A stretch of 64,000 nucleotides of DNA from Oscillospiraceae bacterium (lineage in GTDB: Bacteria; Bacillota; Clostridia; Oscillospirales; Acutalibacteraceae): the NCBI GenBank assembly GCA_015066225.1, contig SVOT01000002.1, positions 248,001-312,000 of the forward strand, given 5' to 3'. Shown here in pieces: positions 33,307-35,001 of the stretch. The position numbers and the translations under genes were made by a program. The notes below the pieces were generated by a model. The model did no database searches. It was not told where the DNA came from and saw nothing but the letters and a program-made list of their open reading frames with translations. The stretch's first letter is position 1; each line of letters starts with the position of its first letter.

Positions 33307-33565
33307 AAAGCTACCTCTCGCATACTATATATAATATATATTATGGTGTGAGTTTTGGCGCCTGTCAACTAAAAATTACAGTTTGACAGAAAAAAGCCTT
33401 TGAAAACCCCTAAAAGTTACAAAGTTGTAATTTTTGTAGTTTTAACCAAAACACATTAGAAAACACTTGTTGTTTTTTATATAAAAACAGGGTTAAGTGT
33501 AATATAATGTTGTTTTGGGTAGAAAACCTTTGTGAATTGTTAACAAAATATGCATTTCCACACAT

Positions 33566-33593
33566 TTGACTTTTAAAGAAACTTGGTTATAAT
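33566..33593 (+). promoter_or_regulatory. Promoter of the 3D-domain gene
   Basis: TTGACT and TATAAT with a 16-bp spacer. Start of transcription near 33600 gives a leader of about 148 nt before the ATG at 33748. The preceding 33307-33565 stretch is AT-rich with no gene that I can see. Confidence 0.7.
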
Positions 33594-33599
33594 ACCTTG

Positions 33600-33740
33600 T
33601 GCCATAGGATAACGGCGATTTTGCCGGCAATATTGGGTTGAAACTTTGGCAATTCAGCACGCTATTGCGGACAAAAAAGCCTACCAACAGCAGCTTTTTT
33701 AAAATAAGAAAGGTAGTAAAAGCTGCTTGTCTAAGGAGAT
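33600..33740 (+). promoter_or_regulatory. Structured 5' leader, candidate riboswitch or cis-regulator
   Basis: The leader can form a long-range helix CCGGCAATA (33624-33632) with TATTGCGG (33663-33670). Near the gene, CCTACC (33680-33685) can pair with GGTAG (33712-33716) while GCAGCTTTT (33690-33698) pairs with AAAAGCTGC (33718-33726). These two helices interleave, so they form either an H-type pseudoknot or exclusive alternatives, and they end 7 bases before the AAGGAG ribosome-binding site. Cell-wall enzyme genes often carry cyclic di-AMP riboswitches, but I do not see that consensus here. The class is unknown. Confidence 0.5.
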
Positions 33741-33747
33741 TAACACC

Positions 33748-35001
33748 ATGACAGTCAGAAAAATAGGCGAAACGGCAGTTCATTCGCCACTTAAAAGAGC
33801 TTCTCTTTTAGTGCTTGCAATTCTGTTTTTTGTTTCAGCAACTGCTTTCGCCACACCGTCAGTAATATATGATGTTACTATTTATGACGGCGACACAGTC
33901 GTTTCTGTTTCAACCGTTTCTACAGATGCGGAGGATGTTCTTGAAAATGCGGGCATAACAATCGATGCCGCAAAGGGTGATGAGGTAAACCTCACAAACT
34001 TCACAGGCACAGAAGGCAGTGTCATTTTTATAAAAAGAGGCGTTAAGGTTACGATTAAAAGCTTTGATGGCTCCTCTTATGCCGTTTACGCTTCAGGCAC
34101 GGTAAGTGATGCAATTGAGGCGGCGGGGATTACGCTCCCGAAGGGCACAGCACTTAACTTTGGTGCGGATGAAATCCTTAAAGACGGTATGAAAATAGAA
34201 ATATATGATATTTTCGATGTTACTATTGCTGTTGACGGCAAAAAGCTTACCGGCAAGGTTTCGGGTAAAACTGTTGCAGATGCACTTGAGGGTATGAATG
34301 TTTCATTGGATGAAAATGATTTCACAAAGCCTGCTCTTGACTCCGAAATTAAAGACGGTATGAAAATCACCGTTAACAGAGTTACTCTCAAAGAGAGAAC
34401 AGAAGAAGAAAAAATCGGATATGATACACAGTACACATATTCCGACTCTCTTTACAAAGACCACACAAAGGTTCTTAAAAAAGGCGAATACGGCTCAAAA
34501 GCAGTTGTGTATGAGGATCGTTACGTTAACGGTAAGCTTGAGAAATCTGTTGTAAAAACAGAAACAGTTCTCAAAAACAGCGTAAGCGAGCTCGTTCAGG
34601 TGGGAACAAGAGTTAATTCAGCTCCTTCTACCCTCCCTGTAGGCACACCCATAAGCGAAATGGCAATGCCCTCATACCTTAATATAGGCTCAAACGGCTT
34701 GCCCACAAGCTACAAATCAGTTATTAATGCAAAAGCAACGGCATATTGCATCCCCGGCGGTATCACCTCAACGGGTAAAAAGGCTCAGACAGGTTACATT
34801 GCAGTTGACCCCAAAGAGATTCCTTATGGCACAGAAATGTATATCGTTTCTGCCGACGGTCAGTATGTTTACGGCTACTGTATTGCGGCTGACACCGGCA
34901 GCTACATTTACGACGTTGACTGGACAGTTGACTTGTTTATGAACTCTGAAGCACAGTGTGTTAAGTGGGGCAGACGTGATATTATAATTTATGTTCTGTA
35001 A
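33748..35001 (+). CDS. Secreted DUF348/G5/3D-domain cell-wall protein
   Basis: 417 residues from ATG 33748 behind AAGGAG (the track's 33727 is a TTG inside the leader). A signal or anchor helix lies at residues 18-38 (LLVLAILFFVSATAFA). Three DUF348-like ubiquitin-fold repeats of about 55 residues follow (YDVTIYDGDT, VTIKSFDGSSY, FDVTIAVDGKKL), then a G5 domain (residues 220-300), then the C-terminal 3D domain with ATAYCIPGGITSTGKK, VDPKEIPYGT and AADTGSYIYDVDWTVDLFM. The 3D domain carries the catalytic Asp residues of lytic-transglycosylase-like Rpf/YuiC/YabE enzymes. It probably remodels peptidoglycan on the cell surface, as YabE-type proteins do. Confidence 0.93.
   Translation: MTVRKIGETAVHSPLKRASLLVLAILFFVSATAFATPSVIYDVTIYDGDTVVSVSTVSTDAEDVLENAGITIDAAKGDEVNLTNFTGTEGSVIFIKRGVKVTIKSFDGSSYAVYASGTVSDAIEAAGITLPKGTALNFGADEILKDGMKIEIYDIFDVTIAVDGKKLTGKVSGKTVADALEGMNVSLDENDFTKPALDSEIKDGMKITVNRVTLKERTEEEKIGYDTQYTYSDSLYKDHTKVLKKGEYGSKAVVYEDRYVNGKLEKSVVKTETVLKNSVSELVQVGTRVNSAPSTLPVGTPISEMAMPSYLNIGSNGLPTSYKSVINAKATAYCIPGGITSTGKKAQTGYIAVDPKEIPYGTEMYIVSADGQYVYGYCIAADTGSYIYDVDWTVDLFMNSEAQCVKWGRRDIIIYVL

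Follow-up and report, generated by a model that had tools for sequence, protein, structure and literature searches.

A covarying leader RNA, restricted to one genus of uncultured gut Clostridia, upstream of a gene for an SpsB/YabE-like protein

The window analysed here, a stretch of 64,000 nucleotides from an Oscillospiraceae bacterium, carries on its forward strand a gene (33748..35001) whose 417-aa product contains DUF348, G5 and 3D domains (Pfam PF03990, PF07501 and PF06725). This bears out a preliminary description made from the sequence alone, which had placed a leader before a cell-wall 3D-domain gene. With DUF348 repeats, G5 and 3D (Sps), the predicted protein has the layout common to the SpsB/YabE subfamily, the firmicute counterpart of actinobacterial RpfB, and on domain content we class it as SpsB/YabE-like; Pfam reported one DUF348 stretch in it, and SpsB has been described with two or three such repeats (PMC1084345). 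The tatD-rnmV-ksgA neighbourhood usual for the subfamily (PMC1084345) is absent around the gene, whose neighbours encode a tRNA nucleotidyltransferase and a CDP-glycerol glycerophosphotransferase. Orthologues were found in 22/22 genomes of the genus. All comparison genomes belong to this one genus and, where named, are metagenome assemblies; the named orthologue records come from such assemblies assigned to Clostridia/Oscillospiraceae, and for four of the five the sample was ruminant gut. RpfB/SpsB-type proteins act in peptidoglycan remodelling, with links to resuscitation and to survival in stationary phase, and one would therefore expect their output to be tightly controlled.

Upstream of the gene lies a sigma-A-type promoter, TTGACT-16-TATAAT (33566..33593, forward strand), which matches the consensus at 11 of 12 positions; a promoter of similar kind stands at the corresponding place upstream of every genus leader (22/22). 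From it we infer a transcription start at about 33600 and, as described before, a leader of 148 nt that runs up to the ATG at 33748 and contains an AAGGAG ribosome-binding site. Two further conserved DNA motifs precede the promoter on the same strand. The first, GTTACAAAGTTGTAAT (33416..33431), has the form GTTAC-n-TGTAAT and resembles a WalR/PhoB-family box. It is found 148-150 bp before the -35 element in 19 of the 22 genus genomes; the remaining three carry a variant that ends in C, at -158 to -169. Related TGTWAC repeats occur 138-171 bp before the -35 element in four other genera of the family. We regard it as a putative WalR-type box that may bind a regulator of the WalR/PhoB family. The second, TTGTGaattgttaACAAAA (TTGTG-n-ACAAAA, 33530..33548), sits just upstream of the -35 element and is seen in clear form, 36-37 bp before it, in at least 10 genus genomes and in G023.

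To determine the fold of the leader, we gave RNAalifold a sequence-only alignment of 20 leaders from the 22 genus genomes. In the consensus a long hairpin (P2) is followed by another (P3), and in a further helix (P1) the 5’ tail of the transcript would pair with the start-codon region. On the forward strand of the window, P2 spans 33614..33681 and comprises a GGC/GCC base, a UUUG/CAAA helix and middle and top stems, with its apical loop at 33643-33652, while P3 spans 33689..33727 (33689-33698 with 33718-33727). The nearly invariant parts of the leader fall outside the two hairpins: they are the 5’ tail, the linker, the start region and the stretch that ends in the Shine-Dalgarno sequence (33727-33738). 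The 5’ tail UGCCAUAGGAUA (33600..33611), the possible 5’ strand of P1, is identical in 19-20 of the 20 leaders at each position except 33606. The single-stranded linker between P2 and P3 (33682..33688) reads UA-n-AAC, with UA and AAC nearly invariant, and no covarying partner for it was found in the genus leader alignment. The segment after P3 (33728..33738), which ends in the Shine-Dalgarno sequence AAGGAG (33733-33738), is unpaired in the consensus, and the start-codon region AACACCATGACA (33742..33753) is predicted to be the possible 3’ strand of P1.

Folded alone, the window sequence lay just modestly above chance when compared with shuffles (z = -1.4 for 33600-33760, -1.8 for 33600-33731, -2.6 for P2 and -2.2 for P3), and we therefore built the case on the comparison of genomes; most individual genus leaders gave z = -2 to -5.7. 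As a null we simulated alignments matched to the data in tree, column rates and substitutions, with each column evolving independently, a simplified version of the R-scape idea. The RNAalifold energy was -36.8 kcal/mol; the tree-matched simulations averaged -1.5 (s.d. 1.4, minimum -7.9), and none of the 200 came as low. The paired fractions of the P2 UUUG helix, the P2 middle, the P2 top and P3 were each reached in 0/300 simulations, and that of the GGC/GCC base of P2 by 1% of simulations. Taken together, the 34 pairs of P2 and P3 were 92.2% paired over the 20 genomes, with two-sided changes in 28 of them, values that none of 500 shuffles attained by any measure; sliding the register by 1-3 columns made the paired fraction collapse to 37-48%. 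P3 alone was 93.5% paired and showed two-sided changes in eight of its 10 pairs. In an R-scape-like test over all pairs no single pair was significant (best structure pair E = 0.7), the 20 sequences being too few, and for that reason we used tests at the level of helices and of the whole fold. The covariation, which thus exceeds that expected from phylogeny, makes it almost certain that the leader is structured and argues for a cis-acting RNA element, one that occupies a fixed place between the promoter and the start codon of a single orthologous gene. It also upholds two helices of the preliminary description, the long upstream one, which is P2 (33614-33681), and GCAGCTTTT/AAAAGCTGC near the ribosome-binding site, which is P3 (33690-33698 with 33718-33726).

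Twenty of the 22 genus genomes have kept the leader. A covariance model of the 20 leaders gave one credible match per genome in 20/22 genomes, in each case before the orthologue of the window’s gene, at 82-162 bits; as the model was built from these same leaders, the matches show uniqueness and are not independent support. Weak matches on the opposite strand reflect the symmetry of the P2 hairpin. Outside the genus we searched 300 genomes of the family, 394 of the order and 391 of the class, drawn as overlapping sets, with filters that can lose weak matches, and found nothing convincing. In the two genus genomes without a match at the gene (G019 and G009, 47-50% protein identity) the 5’ tail is absent, and single-sequence folds, judged by eye, have a long hairpin joined by a short linker to a second one, with the Shine-Dalgarno sequence after it. 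Orthologues in two other genera (loci L044 of G023 and L047 of G036) have strongly folded leaders of their own (z = -3.1 and -3.7), which share no sequence similarity with the genus leader.

Helix P1 stands on different ground. The 5’ tail is complementary to the start region, with 97% of cells paired. The P1 columns scarcely vary (one two-sided change; p = 0.09 in the simulation test), so that covariation is silent on this helix. In one genome (G004) both strands have changed together, to GGAAA/UUUACC. The duplex is interrupted and, in several genomes, the window’s own included, not above shuffles; in the window’s genome it is worth -3.7 kcal/mol, which 63% of shuffles equal or better, and the conservation of each strand could have a separate cause. 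In the computed ensembles the Shine-Dalgarno sequence and the AUG are partly occluded, being mostly 0.4-0.75 unpaired. The start region itself is well kept: although a pattern search shows the combination AAGGAG-n-ACCATG to be rare in the genus genomes (four sites in G000; 1 to 12 per genome), 19 of the 20 aligned orthologues begin with ACCATG, a context specific to this gene, and ACA follows as the second codon in 18 of 18, so that the region seems constrained beyond protein sequence. We treat P1 as hypothetical, and translational control through it as possible but rather doubtful.

Several other pairings were considered and set aside. A GACAA/UUGUC helix beside the Shine-Dalgarno sequence gave p = 0.13 with no excess of pair types. 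The 5’ tail can also be paired to the P2 loop (UUGCCA/UGGCAA), but mismatches occur in several genomes, there is again no excess of pair types, and the p-values are post hoc. An anti-Shine-Dalgarno pairing, UUUUUG/UAAGGA, was not above the null. More generally, no conformation competing with P2 or P3 had an excess of pair types in the 20-leader alignment. The forward strand of the window’s leader contains no terminator-like site and no U run after P3, which speaks against transcription attenuation by an intrinsic terminator of the kind known from rpfB. Nor is any short open reading frame conserved in position and length across the genus leaders, as a leader-peptide attenuator would require; a 32-codon upstream frame seen in G008 and G020 is truncated to a few codons in G000. 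With neither an intrinsic terminator nor a conserved upstream reading frame, the leader probably acts on translation initiation or on the stability of the mRNA.

The leader belongs to no known Rfam riboswitch or leader class: the Rfam search gave no match in the window at the gathering score or at E values up to 10, nor in 15 orthologous loci at E values up to 0.5. The earlier statement that it fits neither the cyclic di-AMP nor the cyclic di-GMP riboswitches therefore holds. The nearest functional parallel is the 5’ UTR of rpfB in Mycobacterium tuberculosis, which is likewise structured, about 130 nt long, narrow in phylogenetic range and placed before the DUF348-G5 counterpart gene (PMC6009663); we claim no homology of the RNAs. 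It is an RNA switch that terminates transcription through an intrinsic terminator with a poly-U tract (PMC6009663), whereas the leader in the window has neither a terminator-like site nor a U tract. In Corynebacterium, a ydaO/yuaA cyclic di-AMP riboswitch (RF00379) reportedly controls a gene for a cell-wall peptidase (PMC9960051), which indicates that genes of this type are under RNA control elsewhere. As in the window, a leader RNA there precedes a cell-wall enzyme gene, but RF00379 does not match the window’s leader even at permissive thresholds. The closest formal likeness is to the orphan cis-regulatory motifs of genomic surveys (PMC2864571, PMC11109978), in which, as here, covarying hairpins occur together with unpaired but conserved stretches close to the Shine-Dalgarno sequence and which keep to one gene family. 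A search of the main text of two surveys (PMC8040213, PMC11109978) turned up no motif for 3D- or G5-domain genes. The leader is thus best read as an undescribed orphan cis-regulatory motif of a familiar kind.

As for function, we consider it likely that the leader regulates the downstream gene, and with less assurance we favour a genus-restricted, cis-acting structured leader that would adjust the output of the SpsB/YabE-like protein from its own mRNA. In one possible scheme P2 and P3 would form the scaffold of a three-way junction holding the Shine-Dalgarno sequence, the 5’ tail would fold back onto the start codon to form P1, and a trans-acting factor or ligand would shift the state of P1 or of the junction. 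The preliminary description had also proposed a structured, regulatory leader; its structural part stands on the covariation and regulation appears probable, but the mechanism it offered, two interleaved helices forming a pseudoknot or switch near the ribosome-binding site (CCTACC/GGTAG versus GCAGCTTTT/AAAAGCTGC), does not. The window sequence does allow both helices, and the letters of CTACC/GGTAG (33681-33685/33712-33716) are indeed present, yet only 31% of cells are paired across the orthologues, below the shuffle mean, and the 5’ arm falls within the conserved P2 base and linker. The alignment of orthologous leaders suggested at the time thus gives covariation for P2 and P3 and chance level for CCTACC/GGTAG, a pairing private to the window’s genome, and we hold the interleaved switch to be highly improbable.

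Four other readings were weighed. The probabilities that we attach to the explanations are judgements; the readings overlap, and the values do not sum to one. In a riboswitch proper, P2, P3, the linker, the tail and the nucleotides flanking the Shine-Dalgarno sequence would together form the binding pocket of a small molecule (a cell-wall precursor, a muropeptide or a second messenger, for instance) and so control translation. Covarying helices with nearly invariant unpaired segments right at the ribosome-binding site would suit this, as would the RNA switch on the M. tuberculosis counterpart gene rpfB (PMC6009663), but confinement to one genus and one gene is unlike most metabolite riboswitches, Rfam gives no match and covariation speaks for no competing fold, so that a riboswitch seems unlikely to us. 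The same narrow range is what a lineage-specific target site for an RNA-binding protein would lead one to expect, and short conserved single-stranded motifs do adjoin the hairpins; repression or activation of translation by a protein bound to the tail, the linker or a hairpin loop (for instance a KH-domain protein like KhpA/KhpB, or an autoregulatory factor) is in our judgement also improbable. A strong pair of hairpins might instead sense no signal and passively keep the ribosome-binding site open while shielding the mRNA from exonucleases. The retention of the hairpins despite sequence drift and the unpaired Shine-Dalgarno sequence in the consensus agree with such a passive role, which leaves the near-invariance of the 5’ tail and of the linker unexplained and which we consider doubtful. 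Finally, the tail may have nothing to do with the hairpins and be a DNA-level operator or an initially transcribed sequence: it begins at the inferred +1, right after a conserved promoter with further conserved motifs upstream, and P1 is weak. Against this, G004 alters both P1 strands together and the covarying P2 and P3 would go unexplained, and we think it an unlikely account.

A bolder version of the favoured cis-acting leader is a new class of riboswitch or RNA sensor responding to a cell-wall signal, in which the mRNA would fold its 5’ end onto its own AUG and so gate access to the start codon of an RpfB-like gene; we regard this as a long shot. RpfB/SpsB-type genes in Actinobacteria are under RNA switches, and a covarying leader on the firmicute counterpart that matches no known class would suggest that RNA control of RpfB-like function arose more than once. 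At present the leader is one more orphan motif with a well-supported structure, and a concrete element to test.

Parts of the leader also recur elsewhere. A second CCATAGGATAA in the genome (L061) was rejected as another copy of the leader, the rest of which is absent there. In another genus (G032), a weak match in the family search (27.8 bits) was not counted: it has mainly the start context AAGGAGATTAACACCATGACA in common and lies before a gene that presumably encodes an acidic DUF1292-like protein. At this locus (L015, ~1501-1522) the start context shared with the window’s gene extends over 21-22 bases. In nearly all 22 genus genomes one other gene per genome (e.g. G000:C3:440016-440036) has a conserved start context resembling AAGGAGGTACTTnAAACCATG.
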